A stretch of 64,000 bases of DNA from Bacteroidales bacterium (lineage in GTDB: Bacteria > Bacteroidota > Bacteroidia > Bacteroidales > UBA932), in assembly GCA_017447265.1 (NCBI GenBank), contig JAFSOA010000006.1, forward strand, positions 62,001 to 126,000. Reading direction: 5' to 3'. This document shows positions 3,134 through 21,371 of the stretch, in pieces. Each line of letters begins with the position of its first letter. Position 1 is the first letter of the stretch. Made by a program: the position numbers and the translations under genes. The notes beneath the pieces were generated by a model. That model saw only the letters and a program-made list of their open reading frames with translations. It ran no database searches and was not told where the DNA came from.

Positions 3134-3862
3134 ATGGCCAGAACTGTAGGAAAATACTCCACAGATTGCAATATAATTGGCGGCATTCCCGATTATAGTG
3201 TGCTTCTGGATTACATTTTAGAGAAGAACGAAGCTTCCGGAGATGGAGGTTTCGTATTCCGGACTCAAAACGCATTGAGCCGTTTCAGTAAATCCATCGA
3301 CACTGGCATCCTCCAGTTTGCTTCTCCCAAGCACAAAGAACTGTTTATGTCCGCCATCGCTGGCGAGCAATATACCAACGCCGAAGAGATGCTCATTCTC
3401 TTTTGGCAGATGATCTACGCCAACAAGCTCTTCGGGAAGATTACCGAGAACATCTTCATGCCGGCAGTCTATAGTGGAAGAATCTTCCTGGACAAGAACG
3501 AAGTGCTCAGTTATCTCCGCTTCCTCCAGAAAGAAGAGCCCCAGAGCCTTCCCTGGTCAGAGAACACACTTGATACTACAGCATCCAAGTACCTGTCCAC
3601 CCTTAAGAAACTTGGTCTTGCTGATGGCTCACTGGTAAAGACAATCCTACACCCAGTAATCAGTGACAGCCTTTTTGTCTACTTTGTCAACTGGGCGCTT
3701 GCCGTCGATAAAGATAAGACCCTAAACAATCCGTTCTTCTTCTACGGCTTCTACGACACAACAGGCCTGATTAGTCGTCTCAAGAAGATTGAACTCATCC
3801 CTTACTGGAACATTAGCCAGATTGGCAACGACATAATGATAGAACTCAAAGCCCATGAGTAG
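3134..3862 (+). CDS. brxA: BREX protein BrxA (DUF1819)
   Basis: First gene of the BREX type 1 operon, 242 residues, the usual length. BrxA (DUF1819) is a small, mostly helical protein reported to bind DNA; its exact job in phage exclusion is not settled. The N-terminus (SGDGGFVFRTQNALSRFSKS) and the position directly before a DUF1788 gene identify it. No enzymatic motif is visible. It overlaps brxB by 8 bases, so the two are translationally coupled. Confidence 0.92.
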   Translation: MARTVGKYSTDCNIIGGIPDYSVLLDYILEKNEASGDGGFVFRTQNALSRFSKSIDTGILQFASPKHKELFMSAIAGEQYTNAEEMLILFWQMIYANKLFGKITENIFMPAVYSGRIFLDKNEVLSYLRFLQKEEPQSLPWSENTLDTTASKYLSTLKKLGLADGSLVKTILHPVISDSLFVYFVNWALAVDKDKTLNNPFFFYGFYDTTGLISRLKKIELIPYWNISQIGNDIMIELKAHE

Positions 3863-4406
3863 CACTTACGAAACCCAACATCTCCGGATGTTTGAAGAGC
3901 TCAAGCACGCTCTCAATATGGAAATGCCCAAGCTTGCCCTTGAAGCCAACGGCGGCAGGAGCATTCTTTTCGTGTATCCGCCAATTGATGATGAAGCATA
4001 TATCGCCGAGGCAAAAGATCGTTTCTCCGACAATTGCGAATTCATCGATCTGCGTAGTTTGATGACTGAGTTCATCAACGATATGGGCTTTGAAGAATTC
4101 CAGCGCCTAAAAAGTGAGATTGGAAACGAAATCTTCGCCAGCAACAATTACTCGGAAGGCACCTTCTACGCCCTCATCATCAAGCGAATCACGGAAGCAA
4201 TGGACGCCAGGAAGGTTCCTGTCCTTGTGCATACCGGCACCATCTACGGCCTTGGATTCTCCAACAACAATATTATGGAAGAAAAGGTGGTCCTCAATTC
4301 CAAGATTCCGCTTGTCGTATTCTATCCGGCCACTGTAGAGAACGGAACTATCATGTTCCTTGGCAAGCAAAACGCATCCAAGTATAGGTGTATCGTCATT
4401 CAATAA
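3855..4406 (+). CDS. brxB: BREX protein BrxB (DUF1788)
   Basis: 183 residues, family DUF1788, always found between brxA and brxC in type 1 BREX. The segment SILFVYPPIDDEAYIAEAK followed by FIDLRSLMTEFI and PVLVHTGTIYGLGFSNNNIMEE is the characteristic pattern. BrxB is required for defence in studied type 1 systems, but its biochemical role is unknown. It starts inside the end of brxA and is 18 bases from brxC. Confidence 0.92.
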   Translation: MSSTYETQHLRMFEELKHALNMEMPKLALEANGGRSILFVYPPIDDEAYIAEAKDRFSDNCEFIDLRSLMTEFINDMGFEEFQRLKSEIGNEIFASNNYSEGTFYALIIKRITEAMDARKVPVLVHTGTIYGLGFSNNNIMEEKVVLNSKIPLVVFYPATVENGTIMFLGKQNASKYRCIVIQ

Positions 4407-4424
4407 CTATCCACACGACCAACT

Positions 4425-7400
4425 ATGACACAGATTAAAGATATCCTTTCCATTCGTCTGGAAGACGAGATAAGCAGCGTTATTGACCTCAACGCCCAGA
4501 GTGAAGCCGATGTCAAAGAAGAGCTGGATAGTTTTATCCTGACAGAAAGCCTTGCCAAGCACCTCTCTGATTTCTGCGACACATTCGAATCAGGCGCAAA
4601 GCAATCCGGTGTCTGGATCAGCGGTTTCTATGGCTCCGGTAAATCGTACTTCGCCAAGATGCTGGGCCTGCTGTTATCCAACAGGGTCATCATGGGGACC
4701 ACGATGCAGGAGCGCTTTGCTCCCAAGCTGGAAGGCCTTCGCAATGCATCTATGCTGAAAAACTCCATTGACGGTCTTGCCAAGACAAAGAACCATGTCG
4801 TTCAGTTTGACTCGGCCAAGCATACCGGCAACGCCGGCATCAATTACATGATCTTTGGGAATTTCCTGAAGTCTCTCGGCTTCCTGGACAACTGGATTGG
4901 TCTTCTGGAATACAACATGTTCCTGGGCGGTGATCTGAATGCCTTCAAAGCTAAAGTCAAGGAGCAGACTGGCCAGGAATGGGACGAGGTAAAAAAGAAC
5001 CTGGTCAAATCTACCAAGACCTTCAAGGACGCATTCCTTGGCCTCGGAAACGAAGTCGATATCTACGATTCCAATAAGAAGATGGCCGAGGATCGTATCG
5101 CCAATTACGATGCCAGCAAGCTTCAGGAGGATATTGAGCGCTACCTGCGCGTGAACCCAGGCCTGCGCATTGTCTTTATGATTGACGAAGTGAGCGAGGC
5201 CATTGCCCAGAAAAAAATCAACATCCTCGATCTGGAAGGAATGGCCGAAGCACTTTCTTCGCTTGGTCAGCGAGTATGGACTGTCGCCATTGCCCAGCTC
5301 CAGCTTGATGACGTGATTAACACCCAGAATCTGGACCAGAATAAGGTGACCAAGATTATTGACCGCTTCCGTTGCCGCATCAGCATAGATGCCGAGGAAG
5401 TCACCACAATCATCCGTCGCCGCCTTCTGGCCAAGACAGACGAAGGCGTCAATACGCTTTCCACTTACTTCAACAAGAACAGTGGCCAGATAAAGGATAT
5501 TACCAACTTCGGCGGCACCGGCCTGAAAACCACTCAAGACGCTGCTAGTTATGCCGACTACTATCCTTTCTTCGAGAGCCAGATCAAGATGCTCCAGTAC
5601 TTCCTCTTTGGCACCTCAAAGATTGTGAAAACACAGGTAGGCACGCGTGGTATGGTTATTTCCGTCTTCGATGTCCTCAAGAAAGAAGCGATGAAAGACG
5701 CCGACATTTATACTCACGTCAATGGCCACCAGCTCTGTAACCAGGCAGAAGATAAAGTTCCAGAGGTACTACGCCACCGCTATGAGCAGGCAGAGAACTG
5801 CCTCAAGGACAACAACCTCAAACTGGTCAGTGGTAAGAAACTCCTCTTGGTTATCCATTTCCTCACGGGTGCTGAGGTAATCAACACATCAGCAGAGAAC
5901 ATCACCAAGTCCTATATCAGCAAGATTGAGGACTACTATTCCGTGCTGGAAGAAGTGAAGAAGGCTCTGGATATCCTTGTCGAGAAGAACATCCTCATTT
6001 ACACCGGCAATCAATATCGCATCACCAGCGAGATTGAGCAGCGCATCATCAGTGTAATGACGCAATTTGAGCCTCAGAACTTCCGTATCGTTGGAGAAAC
6101 CACAAAGCATCTCAGAAATCAGAAGATAATCAAGGATGCCCAGTCGATTACTGTAGATGGCTTCCCGGTGCCTTTCCATCTCGAGATGAGCAATAGCGAG
6201 CCTCTCAATAACGTCGCCTCCAAGTCAATGAAAGTCATCTTCTATGATCCTTTCATCAGTTCTGCCGACCGAGCCAAGACAATTGAAGACATCAAAACTA
6301 CCACCCAGTACGCCAAGGATACAATCACCCTTGTTCCTTCAGATAAATACCGGGCCGATATCTTCAAACTGGCGAAGGAAATTCTTCAGATCAATTACGT
6401 AATCGGCTTGGCATGGCCTACTCAGGAGGAAAAGGATGTTGTTCGCAACATCGAGAGCGGCTTGGACACCAAGCAGAAACAACTTGACGAAGCTATCCGC
6501 AAAGCATATAATGAAGGCGTCGCCATCTATCTTTACAACAGCTATCAGCTCACGGATGACAATGTCTCTTCTGAAATCGACAAGCTCGAAAAGAAAGCCT
6601 ACGACAACGTATTCTCCCGTCGCCTCACTTCACAGTTAAAAGATGATTTGGCGGCAAAGACGCTGAAAGTTGCAGACAACCAGCTGCAGCACCTCTACGG
6701 AACGTCCGATGAATTCAAGTTCTTTGACGCCACGGGATCCTTTATTGGTGACAAGCTCAGCGTGGTAACGGAAATCCTGGATCTTGCCAAGTCTCACATT
6801 AGCGGAAAGGATCTCGAGAATCAGTTGAAGGGCGCTCCTACAGGCTTTGCCTTTGGTACCATCATCACAACAGTCGCCGCCCTCTTCCGTGGAAGCAAGG
6901 TTATTGCCAAGTATGGAGGCAAGGATTACTTCTCGTACAAGGATGCCGGCGCTGACGCCATCTTCTCTCCCTCCAGCCATTTTGCCAATGCCTCATTTAA
7001 GGCTATTTCAAAGAGCCTTACTTACAATGAGAAGCAAGAGATTGTGGACATCCTCAAAGATGACTGCAACTACAAGAAATGGACAGGAGAAGTCGTCAAC
7101 TACTCGATGAATGACTTCCAGCTTGTCGACGCCCTCCGCACGCTTTCCAAAGAACTAATCCGTCGAATTACCAACAGTATCGAAGGCGATTCAGAGCGAG
7201 AGAAACTCTTCAAGTATTCTATACAAGCAAAGGATATCTTCAAGGAATTCGCCAGCACAGTCACCGAGCTTAATTACTATGATACGGCTACCCGCTTCCT
7301 GGCGGATGACACGTCAGATAAGTTTGTTGAGGCCGTTGACCGCGTTGAAAAGGACTTGAACTTCATTGACAACAGCCTCAGCATCATCATTAAAGCTGCC

Positions 7401-8078
7401 AACTACATCAATGAAGTTGAAGCCGAACTAAACCAGACGCGTGCGGATAAGCTCGAATTCGGTAAACTCCGCGATGAATTCCAAGATCTCCGGGATAAAG
7501 ATCTTGTAAAGAACTTCGCTGCTCTGAAGGAAAAGAAGCAGCAGATTAAGGACCTCTACTTCAAACTGATGTCGGAGAAAGCCAAGTTACTGAACACCGA
7601 ATTCTCTGCTCTTGAAGCTCGTGCCGTGGCGTTGCGTGACAAGATTGACACCTTCCCGTCAGATTGGAATGCCACACTTCGCCAGAAAGTATCCTCCACG
7701 ATAAGTGGCTTCAAGAAATACAAGATTACCGAAATCAGCCTGGCAGACTATTCCGTTCGCTGTTCGCTTACGGGCCTTATGCTGCGTGACCTTGAAGGTG
7801 CAATCAAGAGCATTCCGTCTGAGAAGGCCCAGCTCCAGCTGCTCGAATCCGAGTTGCGGACGGTAGCTCCTCATCCTAAACCAGATGTCACAAAACCTCA
7901 GCCCCAGCCTGGAGACGACACGAAACCTACGCCTCCGGCACAGCCTAAGGAACGCAAAGTAAAAAACCAGCTCCCTCGCGGTAAGAAGACCGTAGCTGAC
8001 TATAAAGCCTGGCTCTCCAGTCAGCTTCTCTTTGCCAACCAGTGTGACGAAACCGACATCCTCAACTTCGACGAATAA
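4425..8078 (+). CDS. brxC: BREX P-loop ATPase BrxC
   Basis: A large ATPase of 1217 residues, typical for BrxC. The Walker A motif GFYGSGKS is at residues 67-74 and Walker B (IVFMIDEVSEA) has Asp254-Glu255. The middle is helical with some coiled-coil character (residues ~960-1070), and the C-terminus carries a proline-rich linker (PKPDVTKPQPQPGDDTKPTPPAQ) before a final basic segment. BrxC is essential for phage exclusion and is thought to couple ATP use to the PglX/PglZ complex; that is knowledge of the family, not seen here. It lies 6 bases before pglX. Confidence 0.95.
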   Translation: MTQIKDILSIRLEDEISSVIDLNAQSEADVKEELDSFILTESLAKHLSDFCDTFESGAKQSGVWISGFYGSGKSYFAKMLGLLLSNRVIMGTTMQERFAPKLEGLRNASMLKNSIDGLAKTKNHVVQFDSAKHTGNAGINYMIFGNFLKSLGFLDNWIGLLEYNMFLGGDLNAFKAKVKEQTGQEWDEVKKNLVKSTKTFKDAFLGLGNEVDIYDSNKKMAEDRIANYDASKLQEDIERYLRVNPGLRIVFMIDEVSEAIAQKKINILDLEGMAEALSSLGQRVWTVAIAQLQLDDVINTQNLDQNKVTKIIDRFRCRISIDAEEVTTIIRRRLLAKTDEGVNTLSTYFNKNSGQIKDITNFGGTGLKTTQDAASYADYYPFFESQIKMLQYFLFGTSKIVKTQVGTRGMVISVFDVLKKEAMKDADIYTHVNGHQLCNQAEDKVPEVLRHRYEQAENCLKDNNLKLVSGKKLLLVIHFLTGAEVINTSAENITKSYISKIEDYYSVLEEVKKALDILVEKNILIYTGNQYRITSEIEQRIISVMTQFEPQNFRIVGETTKHLRNQKIIKDAQSITVDGFPVPFHLEMSNSEPLNNVASKSMKVIFYDPFISSADRAKTIEDIKTTTQYAKDTITLVPSDKYRADIFKLAKEILQINYVIGLAWPTQEEKDVVRNIESGLDTKQKQLDEAIRKAYNEGVAIYLYNSYQLTDDNVSSEIDKLEKKAYDNVFSRRLTSQLKDDLAAKTLKVADNQLQHLYGTSDEFKFFDATGSFIGDKLSVVTEILDLAKSHISGKDLENQLKGAPTGFAFGTIITTVAALFRGSKVIAKYGGKDYFSYKDAGADAIFSPSSHFANASFKAISKSLTYNEKQEIVDILKDDCNYKKWTGEVVNYSMNDFQLVDALRTLSKELIRRITNSIEGDSEREKLFKYSIQAKDIFKEFASTVTELNYYDTATRFLADDTSDKFVEAVDRVEKDLNFIDNSLSIIIKAANYINEVEAELNQTRADKLEFGKLRDEFQDLRDKDLVKNFAALKEKKQQIKDLYFKLMSEKAKLLNTEFSALEARAVALRDKIDTFPSDWNATLRQKVSSTISGFKKYKITEISLADYSVRCSLTGLMLRDLEGAIKSIPSEKAQLQLLESELRTVAPHPKPDVTKPQPQPGDDTKPTPPAQPKERKVKNQLPRGKKTVADYKAWLSSQLLFANQCDETDILNFDE

Positions 8079-8084
8079 TAGCTT

Positions 8085-11000
8085 ATGAAACTCATAAACC
8101 ACGTTCTGGATATCCGCAAGCTTGTTCAGCAGGCTATGGACAACCGCTTCTCCAAGATGGGAATCAAGGAGAGTGGTTTGACACCGATTGATGCCCTCCC
8201 GGAAGATCTTCGCCAAAAAAGGCAGAAGTTGGAGGACATTCTGCGCAATCACCAGAGCGAGTTGGAAGACTATGCCAAGGCGCGCCAGGAAACCATCAAT
8301 GAATGCACCTTCACGCTTTTTAATAGGATCGCTGCCATCAAGGTGATGGAAGAGAAGGAGCTATTTCCGGAGGTTATCAAGCGCCGCCCGGAGAACGGTA
8401 ATAAGTCCTTCTCGCACAACCTTTGGTTGGAGGAGAATCCAAGTGAGAAGAATGCTGAGCGTCAAGGTCTGAAGCATTTCCTTCAGTCAAAGTTCAATGA
8501 ACTGGGCGAGAATTTCTCGCTGTATAACGAGAATTATCCCTATTCCTTGATGCCTACGGCCGATGAGCTGTACAACATCCTTGAAGCATTCAATGCAGTT
8601 GAAAATGATCCGGATTGCGGAGCAGATATCTGGAAAGGCGACGATATCCTGGGATGGCTTTATGAGAATTTCAACGCTGTCGAGAAAGAGGCCCTAAAGA
8701 ATTCAGGAGAGAAGACCGAGTATGACAAGGTTTCTCTCCAGAGCCAGGTATATACACCCCGCTGGGTGGTGAAATTCCTTGTGGACAATACTCTTGGCAA
8801 GTTTTACCTTGAGATGTTCCCTGATAGCGATATTGTTAAACCTGATGAAAACGGAGAGGTAAAATATAAAATAGCCAATGCCCCTACAACAAGGAAGAGA
8901 GATCCAAAGAAAATGGAGGAGATTCGGGTGCTTGATCCTGCTTGCGGTAGTGGCAACTTCTTGATTTACACCTTCGATCTGCTCTATGACATGTACCTCA
9001 ATCAGATGGAGCAGTACAATGCTGAGTATTCACGCCGTGATATTCCTCGACTTATCCTTGAGAATAATATCTACGGTGTTGATCTGGATGAGCGAGCAGT
9101 GCAGCTCTCACAGATTGCATTGTTCATTAAGTCTCGTGAGCTGGGTGGCCGAAGGGCCAGGACTGCATCGCATACCAACGTTGTATCAACACATTTCTTC
9201 CTGCCGGATTATTCTGAGGTGGAGTCAGAATTTATCGCTTCCGGAGAATGGGATCAAACACAGCGTGGAACCATACGTAAGATCTGGTCTGACCTTCAGA
9301 ATGCGCACAAGTTTGGTTCGCTAGTCCGTGTAGAGGAGGTGCTGAATGGGCTATCACTCAAAGAAGACGAAGGAACGCTGTTTGCTACCGAAATGGAGCA
9401 AGACCTGTTCTCCTTCAAGAGAAGAGTGACCGATGTTCTTCATGATCAGGTAAAGGCCTATTGCGAGAAAAACACTTCAGAGTATGCGTTGACAAAGGCT
9501 GAGGATGCAATGACCTTCTTAAGCATTCTTTCAATGCCTTTTGATGTGGTGGTTGCCAATCCTCCCTATACTGACTGTGGGGATTTTGGCGAGGAGCTCA
9601 AGTCCTTTACAGAAGAAAACTACAAAAAGCCATATAAGTTTTGCACAAATCTTTATGCATCGTTTATAGCGAGGTGTTGTGAATTATCCGATTCATTAGG
9701 GAAAGTCGGTATGATTCATCCTCATACGTTTATGTACATTAAAACCTTTGAGGATGTCAGAAAGTATCTTCTGGAAAAAACTCACATCAATACACTTGTG
9801 GATTATGGTCTCGATCGTGTCAATCTGTTCGGTCCAGGGATACTCGTAGACGCGACTTTCTATACTGTTGATAAGGGAGTTTCACATGGAGAAGACAGCA
9901 TTTTTTTCAATATTACATCAAATCAACAAGAGAAGACAAAGAAAAACTCTCTCGAACGTGCAGTTGATGACGTTCTGAAAGGAATCAAAAATGACCGTGT
10001 TTTCTTTATTCAACAGTCGAAACTAAAACTGATTAAGTCGTATCCTTTTATTTATTGGGTCTCAGATGATTTTCGCGAGAAGTTCACTAAATACAATCTC
10101 AGTAAGACGGCTTCTGTTATTAGTGGACTGAAAACTGGGAATAATGATGCAACAGTTCGTTATTGGTGGGAAGTAAACGAATCGGACAAATGGCGCTTTA
10201 TGACAAAAGGCGGTCCATTTAATAGGTGGTATGGAAATAACTGGACTAAAGTTATAGTTGAGAATGATTTCGAACTGATAAAACAGCAAAGTAGCTTTAG
10301 CATTCCATCCACCATGGATGTCGAAGCAATAACATTCCCGAGTTCTGGATCAGGCCAAATCTCATTTAGACTGATCGGACCAGAGATTATTTTTAACAAT
10401 GGCTCTCCTGCAATTGTCTCAAATGATAATCACCTTCTATTGGCGATTCTAAACTCTAAACTGAGTGAGTATTCCCTGATAAGCCTTAATCCGACTGTAA
10501 ATACTACAGTAGGCGACATACAGAGACTTCCATTAGTGGACTTTTCTAAAATTGATAAGAAGAAACGTGATGACATCGTCGCGCTTGTCGATTTTAATAT
10601 ATTAATTAAGAAGCACTTATGCTCCTTTTCTTTAATTGAGCCTCATTTTGTTGAATCACCAATCGGAACTAGTCGTGATATTAAAGATGAGATTTTCTCA
10701 TATTTATATTATGAGAATGCACTTAATTCGTTAGTGCTTATTTCCGAGGCAATTATCAATAGTGAGGTCTTCGGTCTCTTTGGATTAAAAGAAGAGGATA
10801 TTCACATGATTCTACAAAAAGTCGGAGTATGCATAGGCTCTCTTCCTATAAGGGAAAAAGCAAAGGATGAATTTATAGAGTGGTGTGACAACGTTAAAGC
10901 AGTTGAAGTTCCAGCTATCGTCAGAAAATATATAGAAGAATTGCCCGAGGCGAGTGACATCGCTGCCCCTGGAGGTTTTAATTCTCTATATCAAACAAAT

Positions 11001-11741
11001 AATGGATGGGAAGACTATTGTGTGCGGGAACTATTGAACCCGGTGGAATGCCTCTGCCAGTTTAAAGAAGCCGGTATTGTACCTCCTCAAAGAGCCAATC
11101 ATTTAGCGTTTGAACTTATTACTGATATAATTCGAACCATATTAAGTAATGACGACGATGGCGTTGTCCCTTTGAATAATAAACTAGGTGAGGATTCCTT
11201 AGCATTTCGAATTGAACAAGAGTTTCATAGAAGAGGTTTTAATGCGGGACAGTTTACTCAAGTGATACAACTACTTGGAGTGGATTTGACATCATATTTG
11301 AGATCTTCTTTCTTCGGGCAGTTAAGCGACTACCTAAATCTCTTTATGTATCTTCCAAAGACTCCTTTTATTTGGCACCTTTGTAGCGGGCCCATGCATA
11401 CTTTAGATCTCTTTATCAGTATATATCGCTGGGATCGGAATACATTGTTCCGCATAAAGAGTGTTTATGCAGCAAATCAAGAATCCGCGATTCGAGATAG
11501 AATTAATGCTTTATCTAATGGAAATAGCATAGAGCAGATGGAGGTCAATAACCTTGTAGAACAGTTAGATGAGCTAAAAGCTTTCGTAGTCAAAATAGAT
11601 AATTTGTTAGCTGGAGGTTATGATCCTAAGTTAGATGACGGTGTGGCAAAGAATATAGCCCCATTACAGTCGAAAGGAATGATATCTTACGAAGTATTAA
11701 ATGCCTCCCAATTAAAGAAGTATTTAAATGCGACTTGGTAG
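8085..11741 (+). CDS. pglX: BREX adenine-specific DNA methyltransferase PglX
   Basis: 1218 residues. The N6-adenine methyltransferase core is clear: AdoMet-binding motif I VLDPACGSGNFL at 282-293 and catalytic motif IV NPPY at 492-495. PglX methylates one strand of a non-palindromic site to mark host DNA and is also needed for exclusion of unmarked phage DNA. The rest (residues ~510-1218) holds the target-recognition and C-terminal domains. Base composition drops after about 9600: a 60-base sample at 8221 has 32 G+C, samples at 10621 and 11521 have 23 each. This suggests that the recognition half was exchanged by recombination. No premature stop or phase-variation tract is visible. Confidence 0.95.
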   Translation: MKLINHVLDIRKLVQQAMDNRFSKMGIKESGLTPIDALPEDLRQKRQKLEDILRNHQSELEDYAKARQETINECTFTLFNRIAAIKVMEEKELFPEVIKRRPENGNKSFSHNLWLEENPSEKNAERQGLKHFLQSKFNELGENFSLYNENYPYSLMPTADELYNILEAFNAVENDPDCGADIWKGDDILGWLYENFNAVEKEALKNSGEKTEYDKVSLQSQVYTPRWVVKFLVDNTLGKFYLEMFPDSDIVKPDENGEVKYKIANAPTTRKRDPKKMEEIRVLDPACGSGNFLIYTFDLLYDMYLNQMEQYNAEYSRRDIPRLILENNIYGVDLDERAVQLSQIALFIKSRELGGRRARTASHTNVVSTHFFLPDYSEVESEFIASGEWDQTQRGTIRKIWSDLQNAHKFGSLVRVEEVLNGLSLKEDEGTLFATEMEQDLFSFKRRVTDVLHDQVKAYCEKNTSEYALTKAEDAMTFLSILSMPFDVVVANPPYTDCGDFGEELKSFTEENYKKPYKFCTNLYASFIARCCELSDSLGKVGMIHPHTFMYIKTFEDVRKYLLEKTHINTLVDYGLDRVNLFGPGILVDATFYTVDKGVSHGEDSIFFNITSNQQEKTKKNSLERAVDDVLKGIKNDRVFFIQQSKLKLIKSYPFIYWVSDDFREKFTKYNLSKTASVISGLKTGNNDATVRYWWEVNESDKWRFMTKGGPFNRWYGNNWTKVIVENDFELIKQQSSFSIPSTMDVEAITFPSSGSGQISFRLIGPEIIFNNGSPAIVSNDNHLLLAILNSKLSEYSLISLNPTVNTTVGDIQRLPLVDFSKIDKKKRDDIVALVDFNILIKKHLCSFSLIEPHFVESPIGTSRDIKDEIFSYLYYENALNSLVLISEAIINSEVFGLFGLKEEDIHMILQKVGVCIGSLPIREKAKDEFIEWCDNVKAVEVPAIVRKYIEELPEASDIAAPGGFNSLYQTNNGWEDYCVRELLNPVECLCQFKEAGIVPPQRANHLAFELITDIIRTILSNDDDGVVPLNNKLGEDSLAFRIEQEFHRRGFNAGQFTQVIQLLGVDLTSYLRSSFFGQLSDYLNLFMYLPKTPFIWHLCSGPMHTLDLFISIYRWDRNTLFRIKSVYAANQESAIRDRINALSNGNSIEQMEVNNLVEQLDELKAFVVKIDNLLAGGYDPKLDDGVAKNIAPLQSKGMISYEVLNASQLKKYLNATW

Positions 11742-11757: not shown

Positions 11758-13962
11758 ATGATTGACAAATGGTTTAGTGAAGAGGTTGCCCTGGCAACGC
11801 AGACAAATAAGCGACTCGTTATCACCGACAATGATGGCGAGGGTCGCTTCCTGCTGGGCTATCTCCCTAAAGGGTACGCATTCTTCTATGTCAATAGCAT
11901 AGATGATGAGGCCTTCGCTCGCTTTCAGGCAGAGAATGAGTTTCCGAATGACAAAGTCATCTTCTATTCATCCATTGCGGCGAAAGATCTGACTCTGCTT
12001 CAGGAGTATGTCCAGACTTGTGGTTGCATCAATCTGGACGACATTGATTCCTACCTTAGGAACTTGCTATTCTCAAAGCTGCATAAGAACACGGCAATCT
12101 CCAAAGAAGATCTGATAATTGCTGCTAAGATGTGCAAGGGTAAGACGGTCGAATGGTGGAAAAGCATAATGGATGGACTTGTCAAACCGCTAGACATCCG
12201 GGAAAACATCCTGGCTCTTCTCCACAACCCTAAGGCGCTAAAGAAGAATTCCGACAAACATATCTGGAAGTCCCTCTGCACGGAAATATACACGCTCATC
12301 GGCAAGCCTAATACCAATCAGCCTGAAGATGCTCTTTCCCTGGAGGTGTCCGGCACAATCTTCTCACGTCTGGCAGATGGAACTCTGGATGGCGAATTAC
12401 TGGACATCTATTACCAGTGGATTGACAGTAAGAGCCTGAGCGAGTCTCTGCCCAAGCATCTCTCTGCATTCAATCTACGCGCGGATGTGGATGTACTTCG
12501 TTCCCATCCTGATCATTGCTTTGAAGCGCTTGACAAGAAACTCTTTAGCCTTATCAGCAAGCGCTTGGAGGCTGGCACCAACTGCGACGATATAGTTCAG
12601 TACATAGACAAGCGCGTATCCAGCCCTCGGGTTGCAGACAAAAAGGCTTCTTGGCTACGCCATCTACAAGTGCTCCTCGAATACCGGTCTAAGGGTATCG
12701 ACAGCGTAAACGATATTCAGTCTTTTGCTCAGTATTACCTGGTCAATTTCGCCAAGGTGGATACTGCTATGAGGAAACTATATGTGTCGTGGCTCAGCAA
12801 TGAAGCCATACTCCGTCCTATCCAGAACTACTACGAGAACCTCAATAAAGTCCTGTTGGACAAATGGTTCAGTTTCCATCGTCAGTACCAGCAGAATCAG
12901 TTCCTCTATCTGAAGACTATCCTTACGGAGAATCAACACTGTGCTGTTATAGTCGGAGATGGCCTTCGCCTTGAGATTGCTAATGCGGTTGCCCAGAAGA
13001 TTCGCCGCTCACAGTTTGATTGTAAGATTGAGGAGAAGACTGGATTCTGCGACCTTCCTTCTGTAACCGAAATCGGTATGAGCCGTCTGTTCGGCATCAA
13101 CTCTGTCAAGGCACAGGATCGTTTCAACCATTTGAAAAGTGAGTTCCCGGATGTGGAGATCAAGCAATTGGACAAGCTGAGCGATGCGGATACCGCCGAG
13201 AAGTTGATCCTCAGCTTTGGCGACATTGACCAGGTGGGAGAAAAGAAACAGCTTGGAGGGCTTAAGGATATCGATGCCTACGAAGATTATTTGGCAGACG
13301 CTATCAGCCGGCTCCTTGCGATGGGTTACGGGAAAGTATTCGTGACCACTGACCACGGCTTTGTAATTACTGGCATCCTGGATGAAAGTGATAAGGTTGC
13401 TCCTCCTGCTGGAGATAATACGAAGACAGAGGAACGCTATGTTCTTTCAGATACTGAGCTTTATGGTCCAGATATCATTGAGAAGGAGGGTGATTTCTTC
13501 TCATATCGTTACGCATACTTCGCCAAGACAGACAAACCGTTCAAGACAAAGGGTGCCTATGGTTATGCCCACGGTGGCCTGACGCCGCAAGAGTGCATCA
13601 TTCCGCAGTATTGCTTCTCGTCAAATGAGCAGGCATATAGTATAGGCGTGAGCATCATCAATAAGGCAGAGCTTGGCTCGATGTCCAGTAACTTCTACAA
13701 GGTTAAACTGAAGGCATCTGGTGATCAGGGTAGCCTATTCAGCAGCCAGGTAACGGTGAAGATCCAGCGCTTCGTAGGTGACGCACCAGTTCCCGGTGGC
13801 CCTGTCCTCACGTTGAGCGCCGGAGAGACCAAAGAAATGGAATTCGAACTACCTCGTGGCGGCGAAGAAAAGATCGTTATCGTAGATAGCGACACAAAGA
13901 AGCAGTATGACTTCTGCACTGTAAAGAAATCCGATGACCGAGACTTGGGAGGTCTCCTATAA
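11758..13962 (+). CDS. pglZ: BREX alkaline-phosphatase-like protein PglZ
   Basis: 734 residues, PglZ type A. The alkaline-phosphatase-superfamily metal motifs are visible: VIVGDGLRLEIA with Asp401 and FVTTDHGFVITG with Asp532-His533. PglZ is the hallmark of all BREX systems and interacts with PglX; metal-dependent nuclease activity has been reported for some members. The N-terminal third is helical; the C-terminal ~100 residues (from SSNFYKVKLKASG) are a beta-rich module. The start ATG is 16 bases after pglX and the gene ends 10 bases before the preferred brxL start. Confidence 0.95.
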   Translation: MIDKWFSEEVALATQTNKRLVITDNDGEGRFLLGYLPKGYAFFYVNSIDDEAFARFQAENEFPNDKVIFYSSIAAKDLTLLQEYVQTCGCINLDDIDSYLRNLLFSKLHKNTAISKEDLIIAAKMCKGKTVEWWKSIMDGLVKPLDIRENILALLHNPKALKKNSDKHIWKSLCTEIYTLIGKPNTNQPEDALSLEVSGTIFSRLADGTLDGELLDIYYQWIDSKSLSESLPKHLSAFNLRADVDVLRSHPDHCFEALDKKLFSLISKRLEAGTNCDDIVQYIDKRVSSPRVADKKASWLRHLQVLLEYRSKGIDSVNDIQSFAQYYLVNFAKVDTAMRKLYVSWLSNEAILRPIQNYYENLNKVLLDKWFSFHRQYQQNQFLYLKTILTENQHCAVIVGDGLRLEIANAVAQKIRRSQFDCKIEEKTGFCDLPSVTEIGMSRLFGINSVKAQDRFNHLKSEFPDVEIKQLDKLSDADTAEKLILSFGDIDQVGEKKQLGGLKDIDAYEDYLADAISRLLAMGYGKVFVTTDHGFVITGILDESDKVAPPAGDNTKTEERYVLSDTELYGPDIIEKEGDFFSYRYAYFAKTDKPFKTKGAYGYAHGGLTPQECIIPQYCFSSNEQAYSIGVSIINKAELGSMSSNFYKVKLKASGDQGSLFSSQVTVKIQRFVGDAPVPGGPVLTLSAGETKEMEFELPRGGEEKIVIVDSDTKKQYDFCTVKKSDDRDLGGLL

Positions 13963-13972
13963 ATAGTTGATT

Positions 13973-16006
13973 ATGATTGACATTGACAATAAATTGCTCG
14001 ACCTCTTCAGGGGTTATGTAGTACGGAAGGATGTGGTTCGTTCCATCAAGACTGGCGCGAATGTTCCTGTCTTCGTCCTGGAATTCCTGCTGGCTAACTC
14101 CTGCAGTACCAATGACGAGGAAAAGATTGCTGAGAGCGTCAAGAACGTAAAAACTGTCCTCCAGCAGCATTACGTGAATCCGGACGAGGCTAACTATGTT
14201 CAGGCCAAGATACGTGAGATGGGCTCCTACAAAGTCATTGACCGCATCTCTGTCAAGCTTGACCCTTCCAAGGATAAATACTGGGCAGAGCTGTCCAACC
14301 TCAATATCCGGGACGCCAACATCGATGAGAGCCTAATATCTGAGCATGAAAAGCTCATGATGGGTGGTATCTGGGCCATCATCGATATGGATTACGACCC
14401 TACAAACATCATCGGGAAAAAGATATATCCATTCGTCGTAACCAAGATTCGCCCCATCCAACTTTCCAACTTCGATGGTGCCCGCATCAGTGAAATGCGT
14501 TCCCAGTTCAGCAACGAAGAGTGGCTGGATATTCTTCTCCGCAGCGCCGGTTACGAGCCCGAATCAGAAGGGATGACGCAGCGTATGAAGATGTTGCTCC
14601 TCTCGCGCTTTATCCCGCTTGTAGAGGCCAATTTCAATATGGCAGAGCTTGGTCCTCGTAGCTCAGGAAAATCGTTCGTCTATAAAGAACTCTCTCCGTA
14701 TTCGCTGCTGGTAAGTGGTGGCCAGGGAACATCTGCCTCCCTCTTTGTGAATAACACAACCGGACAGATTGGCGCTGTCGGAAAATGGGATGCTGTTTGC
14801 TTTGATGAATCTACGGACGAACTCTTCAAGGACGCCGAAGTCGTCCCTCTGATGAAGGACTATATGGAATCTGGCTCTTTCTCTCGTGCTGGCAAGTCCG
14901 GCGAGAAAGCAGCGAATGCTTCCATTGTAATGGTGGGTAATATCAACCAGCCCGTGGAAACAGTGCTGCAGAACAGCCATCTTTTCAGCCCGTTCGCAGA
15001 GAAAGTTGCCAACGACACTGCATTCCTGGATCGTATCGGATTCTTCCTCCCAGGCTGGGAAGTCATCAAGTTCAAACCGGATAACTTCACCAACCATTTC
15101 GGCTTCAGCACCGATTACTTCAGCGAAATGCTCCACCACGAGCGCCGCTTCAACTATACCGATGCCATTGACGAATTCTTCATCCTTGGTTCCCAGCTGC
15201 GCCAGCGCGACACCAAACCGGTCCGTAAGACCGTTTCCGGTCTCATCAAACTGATGCATCCGGATGGCAAGTACACCAAGGAAGATGTTCGCACATATCT
15301 GGAGTGGGCCATCGAGATGCGCCGTCGTGTAAAGGAACAGCTCAAGCGAATTGGCGGCATGGAGTTCTGGGACACCAACTTCTCATACATCGATAAGGAC
15401 ACCCAGGAGGAAATCTACGTCACCCTTCCGGAAGACCGTGGCAACAATCTGATTGAGGATGCGCCCCTGGCTCCTGGCACCTGCTACACCGCAACTTCTG
15501 ATGGAGAGAAAGTATCTCTCGTCAAAGTCGAAGTCATCACCATGGAAGGCAACGGCAAGTTAGAAATATCCGGAACAACCTCGGCAGAGGTCAAACAAGA
15601 CATCAAGAATACCTACAACTACATCCGTGCTAACGAGAAGACCATCCTCTCCCAGAAACATTCCCTGCAGCAGACGGATGTGAGGGTACAAGTGTCCACG
15701 CTGCTTGGTGTAGCAGTCCATACGGGTGTCGGTGCCGCAGTTTTCGCCGCCATCGTATCATCCATCTACAACCGCAACCTCAAGGCAGGCCTGGGCGTCA
15801 TCGGCAACATCTCCATCGGCGGAGCCATCGAACGCGCCACCAACTTTACCGACCGCGTTTCCCTTCTCTCCGAGAACGGTGCCAAAACGGTCCTAGTCCC
15901 GATGGAAAACCTCCCGGAAATGTCCTCTCTCCCTGCCAGCATCCTCGGCAAAACTGACGTGCCCTTCTACGCCAATCCGCAGAACTTGATCCAGAAAATG
16001 GTATAA
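13973..16006 (+). CDS. brxL: BREX AAA+/Lon-like protein BrxL
   Basis: About 677 residues. I prefer the ATG at 13973; a TTG two codons upstream is possible. The AAA+ core has Walker A GPRSSGKS (about 227-234 from this start) and Walker B AVCFDES. The last ~120 residues are Lon-protease-like (LGVAVHTGVGAAVFAAIVSS ... NISIGGAIERATNF ... GAKTVLVPMEN). Where Lon has its catalytic Ser (PSAG) this protein has VGAA, and where Lon has the catalytic Lys (GGLKEK) it has GGAIER, so the domain is probably not a protease. Studied BrxL proteins form DNA-binding MCM-like rings needed for exclusion. High G+C up to its stop, then a sharp drop. Confidence 0.94.
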   Translation: MIDIDNKLLDLFRGYVVRKDVVRSIKTGANVPVFVLEFLLANSCSTNDEEKIAESVKNVKTVLQQHYVNPDEANYVQAKIREMGSYKVIDRISVKLDPSKDKYWAELSNLNIRDANIDESLISEHEKLMMGGIWAIIDMDYDPTNIIGKKIYPFVVTKIRPIQLSNFDGARISEMRSQFSNEEWLDILLRSAGYEPESEGMTQRMKMLLLSRFIPLVEANFNMAELGPRSSGKSFVYKELSPYSLLVSGGQGTSASLFVNNTTGQIGAVGKWDAVCFDESTDELFKDAEVVPLMKDYMESGSFSRAGKSGEKAANASIVMVGNINQPVETVLQNSHLFSPFAEKVANDTAFLDRIGFFLPGWEVIKFKPDNFTNHFGFSTDYFSEMLHHERRFNYTDAIDEFFILGSQLRQRDTKPVRKTVSGLIKLMHPDGKYTKEDVRTYLEWAIEMRRRVKEQLKRIGGMEFWDTNFSYIDKDTQEEIYVTLPEDRGNNLIEDAPLAPGTCYTATSDGEKVSLVKVEVITMEGNGKLEISGTTSAEVKQDIKNTYNYIRANEKTILSQKHSLQQTDVRVQVSTLLGVAVHTGVGAAVFAAIVSSIYNRNLKAGLGVIGNISIGGAIERATNFTDRVSLLSENGAKTVLVPMENLPEMSSLPASILGKTDVPFYANPQNLIQKMV

Positions 16007-16011
16007 CGTAT

Positions 16012-17289
16012 ATGACAAGTGCTATCGAAGTAATCAATGAAAGGATAATTTTAGCTGGGGACATTCTCACAAAGCTCTCTGAGCTTACAAGAAATCCACG
16101 GCCCAGAACTAATTCTGGTATCATTTCTATTGATCCCACAGTTAGGTATAATCCTATTCTGGTCAATCAGATAAAGGATGAACTAAGCAAATGGCAATTT
16201 GTGACTAAAGAATTGCTTATTAAGCACTTCGGAGAAGATAGCCGCTATACAAAACGCTTCGATGATTCCATTGTTGAGCATAAAATTGGCCGAGATTATA
16301 AAGCAGAACTAACCCGTGAAGCCGAAGCGGGAATTACGGCTCTTAAATCAATCATCGAAAGCATTCAAATCTCTGGAGATCCAGCCACTGATATGAATCA
16401 GATTGAAGTCAACAAGCCACCGATGGTTTTTATTAGCCATTCCTATCAGGATAAAGTTTTTGTCGAAGCTCTTGTTGAATTGCTGGAAGGAATCGGTTTG
16501 GATGAAACAACTCTATTCTGCAGTTCTGTTCCCGGCTACTGGATTGGACTCGGAAAGAATATTATCAAGGAGATTCGCGATCTGTTTGACAAACGCTCTT
16601 TGTTTGTCATCTTTGTTCAATCTCCAAACTTTTATAAGAGCGCTGTATCTCTTAATGAGATGGGGGCTGCGTGGGCATTAAAATCGGAGTATTGTTCAAT
16701 CTTGACTCCTGATATGGAGTATAGAGCAATGACTGCCGTAGTTAATAGCCAAGAAATCGCCATTAAAGTGAACACTTCGGAAGCTAAAGCTCGTCTAACC
16801 GAGATGAAAGGGTCAATCCTGTCATTTTTGGGTAAACCAGATATATCTCCCGTTCTTTGGGAAAGAAAGCGGGACAAATTCTTGAGCACTGTTGACCCCT
16901 CGTATAAAGGGGATTCCGCCACTCCTCAATCTTCTACTGAAGAGTATCAGAGATTGATGATTGAGAAAATGAAGCAGGAGAAAGAGGATCTGATGAAAGC
17001 AAGTATTAAAGGGAATATTTTCCCATCATCCAGTAAAGGCTCTTTGCACCTTCGCATATTCAATGCTGGCAAATCGACAGCAAGAAACATTCGAATTGAA
17101 TGGTTGAATGAAGATGAAACCGTTCATCTTTCAAAGCCGTTTGAGACAATCGAGGATCTTAGCCCGCAGAATAAACGAGACTATCGCTTATTTCTAGTCT
17201 ATGGTCATCCGGAGACAATGCGCTTAAGATATATCTGGGATGATGATTTCAAAACCGACAACACTTTTGAGGAGGGGCTGCAATTATGA
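16012..17289 (+). CDS. TIR-domain protein attached to the BREX operon
   Basis: 425 residues. Residues ~1-125 are helical with no recognised family. A TIR domain spans ~136-275: PMVFISHSYQDKVFVEALVELL (first strand and helix), SSVPGYWIGLGKNI (BB-loop region) and SVSLNEMGAAWALK-like segment with the putative NAD-cleaving Glu216. The last ~100 residues look like a beta-sandwich (HLRIFNAGKSTARNIRIEW). Bacterial TIR domains commonly degrade NAD or make signalling nucleotides during phage infection; that activity is inferred here. It begins 5 bases after brxL with no promoter, so it should be cotranscribed with BREX, and overlaps the zinc-ribbon gene by ATGA. It is much more AT-rich than brxL. Confidence 0.85.
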   Translation: MTSAIEVINERIILAGDILTKLSELTRNPRPRTNSGIISIDPTVRYNPILVNQIKDELSKWQFVTKELLIKHFGEDSRYTKRFDDSIVEHKIGRDYKAELTREAEAGITALKSIIESIQISGDPATDMNQIEVNKPPMVFISHSYQDKVFVEALVELLEGIGLDETTLFCSSVPGYWIGLGKNIIKEIRDLFDKRSLFVIFVQSPNFYKSAVSLNEMGAAWALKSEYCSILTPDMEYRAMTAVVNSQEIAIKVNTSEAKARLTEMKGSILSFLGKPDISPVLWERKRDKFLSTVDPSYKGDSATPQSSTEEYQRLMIEKMKQEKEDLMKASIKGNIFPSSSKGSLHLRIFNAGKSTARNIRIEWLNEDETVHLSKPFETIEDLSPQNKRDYRLFLVYGHPETMRLRYIWDDDFKTDNTFEEGLQL

Positions 17290-17561
17290 AAAAGAATTAC
17301 AATCGAAGCATCAGCTTAAGATGCGTTGTGTGCGGCAGCGCAGATCACTTCGAGTATAATGATGACAAGACCTATGTCAAGTGCACTCTCTGTAATCGTG
17401 AGTACCTTGGCGGTCAGGAGGAGCTTCAAGAGATGAATGAAGCTATGATTACGGAAGAAGTAGAATCTATCAAAGAGGAAGTATCAAAGGATGTAGCGAA
17501 AGAACTGACAGAAATGTTTAAACAGGCCTTCCGCGGCAATAAACACATAAAATTCAGGTAG
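17286..17561 (+). CDS. Small zinc-ribbon protein paired with the TIR gene
   Basis: 91 residues with two CxxC knuckles (CVVCGSADHF and CTLCNREYLGG), a classic zinc ribbon, followed by a long acidic helix (EELQEMNEAMITEEVESIKEEVSKDVAKELTEMFK). It resembles small proteins that NCBI, as I recall, names ECs_2282 family putative zinc-binding protein; this assignment is tentative. The ATGA overlap with the TIR gene indicates coupled translation, so it may be a regulator, adaptor or trigger-sensing partner of the TIR protein. No function can be shown from sequence. Confidence 0.75.
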   Translation: MKKNYNRSISLRCVVCGSADHFEYNDDKTYVKCTLCNREYLGGQEELQEMNEAMITEEVESIKEEVSKDVAKELTEMFKQAFRGNKHIKFR

Positions 17562-17594
17562 TTATAGCTGGAGCTGCTCTCGAAACATCAAGGC

Positions 17595-20500
17595 ATGGAA
17601 ATAGTTATTTTTTATTCCTGGATTTCACAGTTTAACAATGCTAACAAGCGCTTTGTTCGGAAATGTATTGATAAAGCGGTCAAGAGACTGCAAAAGGATA
17701 AACTACCGGAACTTGAAGGCATCGACTTGAGAGTCATCGAGAGTTTAGATCGAGCTCCTGGGCATCAAGTTCTTACAACCACGCAAGATGAGGAGATTCG
17801 TAATTCTGACATCTTCATTGGCGATTGGACGGTTGTCAATCCATATAATTTTCTGGAGCGTTTTCTCGCAAAGACATTTCGTTACAAACGGACTCGCAGC
17901 ATAAACACAAATGTAGTTCATGAGTATGAGATCTTCGTTGGTAACAATGGCCATGATGGAGCTATTCTTGTCATGGATGCTTCTCGAGGATCAGCAAAGA
18001 AAGATAATGACCTAATCCCCGTAGATTACCGCAGTCGTCGTTTCCCAATTGAGTTTTCAGGGACTACTAACATAGATGAATTATCTAAAGATATCTACCG
18101 GTCATTAAGAACTAGCGTCCCGGCTGCAATAAAAAGGCGAAAGAATCGTTTCTCTCCCCTACACACCTGGTATGAGCAGGAAGAAAGAAAAGCATTTCAT
18201 GAATCTCCCTTTTATGAGAACGAAAGGATCCGCACAATCAAGGAGGCCATTCGGCACTCCGATAAAGATTTGCGCATTCTTGGCATGTCTGGGATTGGTA
18301 AAACTAGATTGGTTCACGAAGCTTTTCGAAATGAGGAAGATGCTTTTTTCAGAAATAATTATCTCTATGCGGTATTCTCTGACGATGAATCTGCAGGCAT
18401 TCGCAATTCAATTGAAGGCTATCTGACTGACCCGAAGAACGAATGTATCATCTGTGTTGATAATTGCCCTCCTTCTTTTGCACGCATCATTCAGAAGACA
18501 AAACGAGATTATTCAGCACGTAATAGGATTATTACAATTTTCAATCACCAAGACCAGGATAATAGCGACCCTGTATCTGATGTCGAAACGATTGCTATCG
18601 GTCTGGATGATGTTTCATCTGTCGTTGATAACATTCTTGATGGAGCATATTCACAATTATCAGATGATAAGAAAAAGATAATCAAAGACTTCTCAGCCGG
18701 GTTGCCTATGATGGCAGTTATTCTTGCAGAAAACGCCAAATCTGGGCGGCTAGATTTCACAAGAATACCCAATAATGAGTTGGTTGATAAGCTCCTCGAT
18801 GTTGATGAGAATCACGATAAGGAGATCCTTAAATCGTGCGCTCTTTTCTCGCATATTGGATACCGTGATGAAGTTGCAGGTGGGGCTAAGTTCATTATCT
18901 GCAATAAGGACATCTCTCCCCTGTTGGATGGTGAAGAAAATGCAAGAATGACTTTGTTTCAAAGGACTTTCAACAAATACAAGGCTCGCGAAATCTTTGA
19001 GATCCAGGGACGTTTTTTTGCAATCCGCCCCATCCCTCTTGCTCTGAAACTAGCTGAAGATTGGCTGGCTGAGTGCAACCCCGAGCGCCTCCTCAATGTC
19101 ATTACTGATATTCAGATTGAGGATGCTAGGAATAATTCCCAGCTCTTAACTAATGCCTTCGCTAGCCAAATGTCTAATTTGGCCGGCAATGAGAAGGCGC
19201 AGAATCTCGTTAAAACTCTTACTGGTATTGAGAGCCCTTTTGCTAACACGGAAGTTTTAAATACTGAACTGGGTTCACGACTCTTCCGATCGTTAGTAGA
19301 AGTGGACCCCGTGTCAGTGGCTGATCTCTTATGGCGTGTCTTTGGGGAGATGTCTACCGAATCTCTGTTGTTAATTAAGGATGGCCGAAGGAACTTGGTT
19401 TGGACAGTACAGAAACTCTGTTTCGACAAACGGACCTTTAGGATAGGCACTAAACTGCTAATCAAATTTGCTTTGGCAGAGAATGAAACTTGGGGGAATA
19501 ATGCCACAAATGAAGCTGTAAACTTGTTTCATGTTTATCTCCCAGGGACAGAAGCGGACTTGGATGCCCGGATGGAGATCATTAACTGGGTAAGAACCTT
19601 GGATGGCGCAGAGGACTTTTTGATCAAGATTCTGTCATCTGCGTTGATGTCCGGCAATTATTCATATATGGGTGGCGCAGAGAAACAAGGATCCAAGAGA
19701 TTAGACCACTACATGCCGTCCGGAGCAGAGATAGTCAAGTATTGGGAAAACATATCATCCATTATAAAGGATTGTATTGTGGCTTATCCTGATAAACTTG
19801 ACGACCTTTCAGAAGTGGTTTCTTCCAATTTTGGCTGTCTTATACGAGCCGGTGTAAGCACGCTTGCATTTGACTTGGCAGAGTTCGTCGCAGATAAGCG
19901 TAATTGGGATTGGGAGAAGATGCGCGAGTCCCTTAGGATGATTTCCTGGAGAAATGGCTGGAAGGAGTATCCTGAGCCCCTTAAAAAACGTATACAGCAG
20001 TTTAAAGAAAAACTCACCAAGGATGATTTCATTTCAAGATTCCGCGACGCATCTCGCTATGAAAGAGGAAGTTGGGATGACGAATTGAAAAAGAAAACCG
20101 AATTATACAAAGGACTGGCCCATGATTTCGTTGATAAGGAAGGCGCAAGTGATGAAATCTTAAGGCAAGTACTCCTTGATTCCAATTTAAGACCCTATAA
20201 CGTTTTCGGAGCAGAGCTATACAACTGCGTCTGCAATAATAATAGCCTGTACCTAAAAATTTCGACCACCATCATTTCCACAATATCAGAGACGAAGAAT
20301 TACGCGGACAGCACCCTGATCGGCTTCTGGAGTCATGCTTCTAAGCAAGACTTTGAGGATGTATACCCTACTATTCTTGACCAGATTCCAGATGCTCTTT
20401 TCCCGCTCTTAGCCATACGATGCTCTGCCCTGGATGAGTGCTCTCTATTGTTCGATTTGGTCAGTACTGGAATGGCGAGTATTAATTCCTTCAATATGTT

Positions 20501-21371
20501 CTGCTCCTACTGTATTTGGAACAAGCATGATAAGGATAGCATAATCGCCTTCTTTGATAGATTGGCCAGATTATCTTCAGACGGTTCGATCATTGCGTTA
20601 GAGCGGATGAAGTCTTTGCTGTATTTCGACAAACAAGACAACAAATGGTCGTTTCTTGTAGAAGAGTATAGGAAACTGATTATTGAGGAGATTGCGCCAG
20701 CTCGAATTGATCATGAAGGGTATATGGAGTGTGTTGAAATGATTCTTGATCAGTATGATAGTCCAACCGTCGCATCGTTTATCAGTAAGAAACTGTTGGC
20801 CTTTTTTATGACGGAATCATCTAATCATCACCTTACAGGGCACTACGTTGATTCTGTTCTTTCAATAATCTTTAATAAGTACTTTGACGTGGTTTGGCCG
20901 GACTGGTCTAAATCACTGGCCGATCCCCAAAAACTGGTATTTGCATACCTTCTCAAATTTAAACTTGGGCACTCAATCGGAGGAATCGGAGATGGTGCGT
21001 TATTTGGGGTCAACCACAGTGATGCGCTTAAGCAATGGTGTGCTGACTACCCCGACAGCGCCCCTATAGTACTTGCAACCTATGTCCCAGTTTATGATGG
21101 AGAGCAATTATCCGAACTAGCTATTTTCCTTCTGGATAACTACGGTAATAACAAATCTGTCTTGAGTGAGTTGGGCTGCAACCTAGGCTCTTTTTCATGT
21201 GTAGGTTCAGCAGTCCCCATATATGAGAAGAAGAAGAGAGTGCTTCAAGCATTGGTGCCACACAAGAATCCCGTTGTAAACCAGTGGTTGTTAGATAACA
21301 TTAGGTACGCAGACGCTGATATAGCCAGAGAGACTGATAGAGATGCGGAGGACACCATCTTGTATAGATAG
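17595..21371 (+). CDS. STAND NTPase with TIR-like N-terminal effector (Avs/NLR-like)
   Basis: 1258 residues in three parts. Residues 1-~175 resemble a TIR-like fold: FYSWISQFNNANKRFVRKCIDKA, NSDIFIGDWTVV and NTNVVHEYEIF, where Glu110 takes the position of the catalytic Glu in NPNVxxE-type TIR relatives. Residues ~205-480 are a STAND-type NTPase with Walker A GMSGIGKT at 230-237 and Walker B ECIICVDNC near 285. The remaining ~750 residues are helical, without clear repeats by eye, and would be the sensor. This is the architecture of bacterial NLR-like proteins (Avs family and relatives), which recognise a phage protein and switch on the effector. It starts 33 bases after the zinc-ribbon gene with no promoter in between. 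Function inferred; no close named homologue recognised. Confidence 0.8.
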   Translation: MEIVIFYSWISQFNNANKRFVRKCIDKAVKRLQKDKLPELEGIDLRVIESLDRAPGHQVLTTTQDEEIRNSDIFIGDWTVVNPYNFLERFLAKTFRYKRTRSINTNVVHEYEIFVGNNGHDGAILVMDASRGSAKKDNDLIPVDYRSRRFPIEFSGTTNIDELSKDIYRSLRTSVPAAIKRRKNRFSPLHTWYEQEERKAFHESPFYENERIRTIKEAIRHSDKDLRILGMSGIGKTRLVHEAFRNEEDAFFRNNYLYAVFSDDESAGIRNSIEGYLTDPKNECIICVDNCPPSFARIIQKTKRDYSARNRIITIFNHQDQDNSDPVSDVETIAIGLDDVSSVVDNILDGAYSQLSDDKKKIIKDFSAGLPMMAVILAENAKSGRLDFTRIPNNELVDKLLDVDENHDKEILKSCALFSHIGYRDEVAGGAKFIICNKDISPLLDGEENARMTLFQRTFNKYKAREIFEIQGRFFAIRPIPLALKLAEDWLAECNPERLLNVITDIQIEDARNNSQLLTNAFASQMSNLAGNEKAQNLVKTLTGIESPFANTEVLNTELGSRLFRSLVEVDPVSVADLLWRVFGEMSTESLLLIKDGRRNLVWTVQKLCFDKRTFRIGTKLLIKFALAENETWGNNATNEAVNLFHVYLPGTEADLDARMEIINWVRTLDGAEDFLIKILSSALMSGNYSYMGGAEKQGSKRLDHYMPSGAEIVKYWENISSIIKDCIVAYPDKLDDLSEVVSSNFGCLIRAGVSTLAFDLAEFVADKRNWDWEKMRESLRMISWRNGWKEYPEPLKKRIQQFKEKLTKDDFISRFRDASRYERGSWDDELKKKTELYKGLAHDFVDKEGASDEILRQVLLDSNLRPYNVFGAELYNCVCNNNSLYLKISTTIISTISETKNYADSTLIGFWSHASKQDFEDVYPTILDQIPDALFPLLAIRCSALDECSLLFDLVSTGMASINSFNMFCSYCIWNKHDKDSIIAFFDRLARLSSDGSIIALERMKSLLYFDKQDNKWSFLVEEYRKLIIEEIAPARIDHEGYMECVEMILDQYDSPTVASFISKKLLAFFMTESSNHHLTGHYVDSVLSIIFNKYFDVVWPDWSKSLADPQKLVFAYLLKFKLGHSIGGIGDGALFGVNHSDALKQWCADYPDSAPIVLATYVPVYDGEQLSELAIFLLDNYGNNKSVLSELGCNLGSFSCVGSAVPIYEKKKRVLQALVPHKNPVVNQWLLDNIRYADADIARETDRDAEDTILYR

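Follow-up and report, generated by a model that had tools for sequence, protein, structure and literature searches.

The window, a 64,000-nucleotide stretch of a Bacteroidales genome (contig JAFSOA010000006.1, positions 62,001 to 126,000), carries nine genes on its forward strand: brxA, brxB, brxC, pglX, pglZ, and brxL, the operon-like row of type 1 BREX, followed by genes for a TIR-domain protein, a small zinc-ribbon protein (ZnR), and a STAND NTPase. The first-pass annotation had read all nine as one layered system in which BREX is backed by NAD-depleting suicide if it fails. The reading preferred here is that the TIR and ZnR genes form an abortive-infection module with a swappable effector, stacked behind the BREX operon, and that the STAND protein is a second, independent add-on; our confidence in it is evenly divided. 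Both add-ons are probably co-transcribed with BREX. The module belongs to a widespread family that pairs ZnR with a protein combining an N-terminal part and a characteristic C-terminal domain (Cdom), and the window member is armed with a TIR. Within the material searched, the nine genes do not recur as a BREX variant, and the object of interest is this TIR-armed ZnR/Cdom module.

The TIR-Cdom protein consists of an N-terminal region (residues 1-132), a TIR domain (about 133-290) similar to that of SpbK, the TIR NADase of Bacillus subtilis ICEBs1, and Cdom (about 312-425), which overlaps a phrog_6723 match at residues 310-418. Pfam TIR_2 is barely above its cut-off (28.3 versus 28 bits), and the best relative of the TIR in the PDB is SpbK (9phb, E 9.4e-13), covering residues 133-290 only. 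Because the window helix N-E-M-G-A-A-W aligns with N-E-M-G-A-T-W of SpbK (residues 191-197), E216 can be equated with E192 of SpbK, a residue at which substitution by Q abolishes defence according to the accessible portions of PMC12847820 and PMC11984713; the same portions report NAD cleavage by clustered TIR domains of SpbK. The TIR is SpbK-like with its catalytic glutamate conserved and is a predicted NADase, and the TIR and STAND proteins are compatible with abortive infection, as the first-pass annotation had it. The gene was considered as SpbK itself, and this was ruled out: SpbK, in the accessible descriptions, has 267 amino acids, starts with a portal-binding domain, and ends at the TIR, whereas the N-terminal region of the window protein has no reported match to that of SpbK, Cdom is added, and a zinc-ribbon gene is coupled. 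A 398-amino acid TIR relative in another genome (G274), 42% identical over residues 31-294, is without the C-terminal domain and adjoins proteins with Por-secretion tails, not known defence genes. For the C-terminal 110 residues, the sole match in three genomes of the order is to a stand-alone protein, about 145 amino acids long, which in two of the three comes directly after a ZnR gene. No close TIR or STAND relative was confirmed in viral contigs.

ZnR and/or Cdom were found at 83 loci (64 genome contigs from a pattern-limited scan of a species genome collection, 11 viral contigs, five plasmids, and three genomes of the order), with some places represented twice (L051 and L067). Most occurrences of the two-gene module are in Bacteroidales and Proteobacteria. 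Two CxxC pairs and a conserved tail at the C-terminus (AFxGxxxI) characterise ZnR; the window protein scores 26.4 bits against ECs_2282_CxxC (NF047912, cut-off 37), its relative at L058 scores 65.7, and the closest relatives are from Bacteroidales, with family members 27-62% identical over the best segment. Cdom has the conserved pattern NxGKxxAxN...WxDD and presumably resembles an Ig-like domain; PDB searches with Cdom or the STAND protein gave matches near chance level only, and phage records searched with the window ZnR and with the Cdom of L094 gave no match. Cdom adjoins ZnR in 60 of the 64 genome loci. L092, L105, and L118 have 82, 185, and 318 bp of contig left behind ZnR, in which a hydrophobic segment can be seen to start, and at L126 Cdom was not found in the 354 bp remaining after ZnR. 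The order is ZnR then Cdom in 59 of the 60; the exception, L066, also from Bacteroidales, has TIR-Cdom then ZnR, like the window. Cdom is present at eight of the eleven viral-contig loci, the contig ends at ZnR in two, and L136 is without it. The family corresponds to the pairing of ECs_2282-type zinc-ribbon and phrog_6723 proteins, uncharacterised and found in integrative and conjugative element (ICE)-like elements, plasmids, and Type I restriction-modification (R-M) operons, which likewise couples ZnR to Cdom; the window differs from that pair in having a TIR in place of the hydrophobic N-terminus and in its gene order.

The exchange of the N-terminal part can be followed in the 77 Cdom proteins, some of which represent one place fetched twice. 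In 46 of them a 19-residue mean hydropathy above 1.6 occurs near the N-terminus; the other 31 comprise two TIR fusions (1.02 and 0.71), the fragments L060 and L062, three proteins near 1.0 (L107, L111, and L137), and others from 1.27 to 1.6. Given this distribution, most Cdom proteins probably have a membrane segment, though not every one need have it, and where present the hydrophobic segment is probably a membrane anchor. The window protein has no such segment (maximum 1.02) and has the TIR in its place. Cdom starts beyond residue 62 in just two of the 77, the window protein and that of L066; each has a TIR, and they are 43% identical. In the combined tree, and again in that of Cdom, the two are sisters (0.984), nested among other Bacteroidales pairs, and most likely the TIR arm was gained once, replacing the hydrophobic segment. 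At L066 (5763-9578), an NsnB/OLD-like ATPase gene and two small genes precede TIR-Cdom/ZnR on the same strand, possibly a different host system.

The pair is frequent on mobile elements: among 66 plasmid records that carry ZnR, 64 are typed conjugative. A survey of 5,426 complete E. coli genomes found DNA near-identical to one plasmid copy of the usual form in 80 (in 79 of them the match spans 80% or more of the query), although some of these copies may be broken, and laboratory work on the usual form is thus within reach. In E. coli NCTC9967 (L168 6013-7163) the pair lies behind an ISNCY transposase with a small gene, WP_001610302.1, 42 bp downstream; that gene also lies behind ZnR on pAPEC-O2-ColV (L062) and may be a third component. 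On pAPEC-O2-ColV itself, the Cdom gene (L062 4261-4760) is un-annotated, has in-frame stops, and looks broken, while copies in other E. coli records such as L168 are intact.

Other restriction operons also have the module within or behind them, and a general link to restriction is thus possible. With eight seed proteins taken from tested loci, homologues of Type I R-M proteins (HsdM, HsdS, or HsdR) or of McrC were found in the flanks of 17 genome loci out of 64; in 15 they share the strand of the module and in six they lie within 700 bp, compared with one of 39 control loci fetched for BrxL, TIR, or STAND (Fisher p 0.0012). As the seeds originate from tested loci, the count was repeated leaving out the seeds of each locus's own group (16/64, p 0.0023); after collapsing at 85% ZnR identity it is 7/36, five on the same strand (p 0.025). 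At L069, L071, and L073 hsdM precedes the pair and hsdS follows it, overlapping it by 4 bp, and at L072 hsdS is 158 bp downstream. Two Tannerella forsythia loci have hsdS directly upstream and an AbiH-type protein after the pair (AbiH tested in L076), and L078 has an LlaJI-type endonuclease directly upstream. In the ICE-like copies, which we take to be SXT/R391-like, the pair comes after genes of Type I or McrBC systems, and at L084 an Mrr-type endonuclease separates the two; MobH and TraD adjoin L058. The group around the window in the tree has ten members, several of them near-copies: six next to hsdS, one next to LlaJI, the window behind BREX, and L066 and L074 beside neither. L049 (6707-16006) has a Cdom gene flanked by hsdM and hsdS but no detectable ZnR, a different small open frame being in the place of ZnR. 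A wider comparison of neighbours was made with PADLOC. After near-duplicates and proteins shorter than 110 amino acids had been dropped, 148 of 165 near and 148 of 177 far neighbours were sampled, and one near and 21 far neighbours cut by contig edges were excluded; the un-normalised totals of families matched, 431 for the 147 near and 217 for the 127 far proteins scanned, are suggestive only.

Several observations weigh against the preferred reading or its restriction link. No Type I R-M or McrC homologue was found with the seeds used at 47 of the 64 loci, about 10 kb on both sides is present in just 32 of the 64, and eight of the 17 positives belong to one ICE-like lineage, so that near-copies inflate the full and leave-out counts. 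For these reasons the link between the module and restriction systems is statistical and the association moderate. Defence islands, moreover, cluster anyway. L066, the sole other TIR fusion, adjoins the NsnB/OLD-type ATPase and not a restriction system, and the tree of ZnR alone does not group the window with L066. The membrane-type relatives L107, L111, and L137 do not exceed the window fusion in hydropathy, and BREX beside the ZnR/Cdom module was never repeated outside the window.

The last point was examined from both sides. Besides the window, 31 brxL loci were collected (14 from 295 genomes of the order, seven from 395 genomes of the class, and ten picked from 332 plasmid records), and within the fetched flanks none of the 31 has a TIR, ZnR, Cdom, or STAND homologue near brxL; in five, among them the closest relative, G020, the downstream flank is shorter than 1 kb, and four (L040-L043) encode a short BrxL of another kind. 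Conversely, homologues of the window BREX proteins (E 1e-4) were found near ZnR/Cdom at none of the 83 loci, whose flanks are often cut by contig ends. A search for more complete close BREX relatives among 60 relatives of G020 gave G020 alone, its contig ending within brxL. As the homologous brxL loci show no TIR, ZnR, or STAND genes in the flanks fetched, the BREX link is not conserved among them, and the nine genes were rejected as one conserved system. Composition agrees with this. The GC content at third codon positions (GC3) is 0.56-0.64 in brxA, brxB, brxC, pglZ, and brxL, 0.43 in pglX, and 0.40-0.50 in the TIR, ZnR, and STAND genes, and its drop from 0.641 to 0.397 across the brxL/TIR junction suggests a join there. 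The layered unit of the first-pass annotation, selected together with BREX acting first and TIR/STAND suicide following its failure, draws on the single strand, the tight spacing, and the published theme of backup effectors for BREX (accessible portions of PMC12839542), but the failure to recur among either set of loci and the composition break at brxL/TIR make it very unlikely.

Plain stacking in a defence island, with BREX, the TIR pair, and the STAND protein as three independent systems that chance and selection for clustering put side by side, coupled at most by shared transcription, is a possible but tentative alternative. It would account for the unrepeated arrangement and the GC3 break, and is consistent with the one full-length STAND relative found (L053 6973-16973), which has no TIR, ZnR, or BREX gene within 18 kb and a DdmD-like gene nearby, as well as with further possibly defence-related genes downstream of the STAND gene. 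It fits less well with the recurrence of the module inside restriction operons, down to the 4-bp overlap with hsdS, or with the distances of 5 bp (brxL-TIR), -4 bp (TIR-ZnR, an ATGA overlap), and 33 bp (ZnR-STAND) without a strict promoter match between. These distances agree with the first-pass annotation, which also saw neither promoter nor terminator between the genes. Since sigma-70 promoter and terminator scans gave counts no better than shuffles (29 versus 29.7 and 17 versus 17.0), they are uninformative either way and were dropped as evidence. With the Bacteroidota-type consensus, which we take to be TTTG-N18-22-TANNTTTG, eight strict sites occur in the window versus 0.34 expected; none lies within 3134-21371, and one follows just past the STAND gene. 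At nine of ten consensus matches, however, two forward-strand sites fall inside the row (11603-11634 and 16585-16615, the latter within the TIR gene), and upstream of brxA the scan found the -7-like half alone (3076). A single transcript over the nine genes is plausible.

A toxin-antitoxin pair, in which ZnR would be the antitoxin or chaperone and the Cdom protein the toxin, serving the stability of mobile elements and not phage defence, is improbable. Two small coupled genes that are often on conjugative plasmids would suit it, but ZnR is under every antitoxin family cut-off, and the TIR arm and the embedding in restriction operons are features that we take to be atypical of plasmid-stability pairs.

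If the preferred, stacked-module reading is right, ZnR and Cdom would form a sensing or holding complex and the N-terminal part would act: phage infection, or a disturbance of the neighbouring restriction system, would be sensed, and the TIR domains would cluster and degrade NAD, stopping both cell and phage. Because the module recurs beside restriction subunits, the state of the restriction complex is a candidate trigger, and BREX could then be the one watched in the window. A broader version, which we consider unlikely, would make ZnR-Cdom a general "restriction guard" that watches Type I R-M, McrBC/Mrr loci, or BREX, with inhibition of that complex by an anti-restriction protein of a phage firing an exchangeable N-terminal effector, mostly a membrane segment and, in the Bacteroidales branch that moved behind BREX, a TIR NADase. 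PrrC is a suicide guard of restriction loci; if the stacked-module reading holds, an effector-swapping two-gene module would join the devices known to accompany restriction systems, and one could test whether such loci have suicide guards of their own other than PrrC.

Extra defence genes in or behind BREX operons have been reported, including the BrxU island (PMC8565348, accessible portions), and multi-layered BREX with backup nucleases has already been proposed in the accessible portions of PMC12839542; the published auxiliaries are nucleases, and the terms TIR, NADase, and Toll do not occur in those portions of PMC12839542. A precedent for two defence genes forming a module within a Type I R-M cluster is TgvAB of Vibrio cholerae VPI-2, but it is, as far as the accessible portions of PMC12409362 describe it, a GmrSD-like restriction system with DUF262 and DUF1524 domains. 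The ZnR/Cdom pair, or a TIR or STAND protein with BREX, was not described in open-access titles and abstract openings among the matches listed.

The coordinates and frames of the nine genes (Table 1) agree with the first-pass annotation, and PADLOC names confirm its six canonical BREX genes in order. PglX is of the BREX-1 class (NCBIfam NF033452, 517.5 bits versus a cut-off of 500) and BrxL is well above its cut-off (TIGR02653, 803.9 versus 628). PglZ, to judge by its scores, is a divergent member, far under the NCBIfam cut-offs for types 1B (81.7 versus 400 bits) and 1A (49.6 versus 270) though high in PADLOC (545.9 bits). The STAND protein matches PD-Lambda-4_A, a PADLOC name, over residues 209-817 only, with the first 200 or so residues outside the match; the name has no occurrence in the main text of PMC9519451, which we take to be its source. 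Its earlier description as TIR-like/STAND stands for the NTPase with its Walker A motif and is weak for the N-terminus: similarity to CAP12-type TIR domains is below cut-off with the whole window protein (E 0.053) and with the N-terminus of a relative (E 0.003), and a search with the N-terminal 235 residues alone gave no match, so that this domain is perhaps TIR-like. The full-length relative, in G082 (34%), is one of two matches beyond the window's own in 247 genomes.

Table 1. Genes of the row and the promoter-like site behind it, in window coordinates.
Feature	Position	Strand	Support
brxA	3134..3862	+	PADLOC BrxA 4.5e-46; Pfam BrxA above cut-off
brxB	3855..4406	+	PADLOC BrxB 6.2e-32; Pfam BrxB below cut-off
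brxC	4425..8078	+	PADLOC BrxC 1.2e-297; Walker A at residue 67
pglX (brxX), methyltransferase	8085..11741	+	PADLOC E 0; NPPY-type motif at residue 492; GC3 0.43
pglZ, divergent	11758..13962	+	PADLOC PglZ 4.1e-164
brxL, Lon-like, TTG start	13967..16006	+	PADLOC 1.8e-275; Walker A present
TIR-Cdom fusion	16012..17289	+	PADLOC spbK 4.9e-49; PDB 9phb; phrog_6723; Cdom HMM
Zinc-ribbon partner (ZnR)	17286..17561	+	Alignment: two CxxC, C-terminal AFxGxxxI tail
STAND NTPase	17595..21371	+	PADLOC PD-Lambda-4_A 2.8e-38; Walker A GMSGIGKT at 230
Bacteroidota-type promoter-like site	21416..21447	+	Consensus scan; before the next gene (helix-turn-helix, HTH)

The GC content is about 0.39-0.52 across approximately 2.3-26 kb of the window (0.39-0.54 for the island) versus about 0.60 for the chromosome, and for this reason the BREX operon probably sits in a low-GC, acquired defence island. 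Downstream of the STAND gene are an HTH gene (21501), a gene for a CoiA_N protein (22006-23109), and a gene for a protein (23160-24434) with sub-threshold ApeA/HEPN similarity and no PADLOC match; the latter two continue the island and are possible further defence genes. An inverted repeat, CTAATTGG...CCAATTAG, at 21404-21427 overlaps the promoter-like site before the HTH gene and looks like a putative operator of that regulator.

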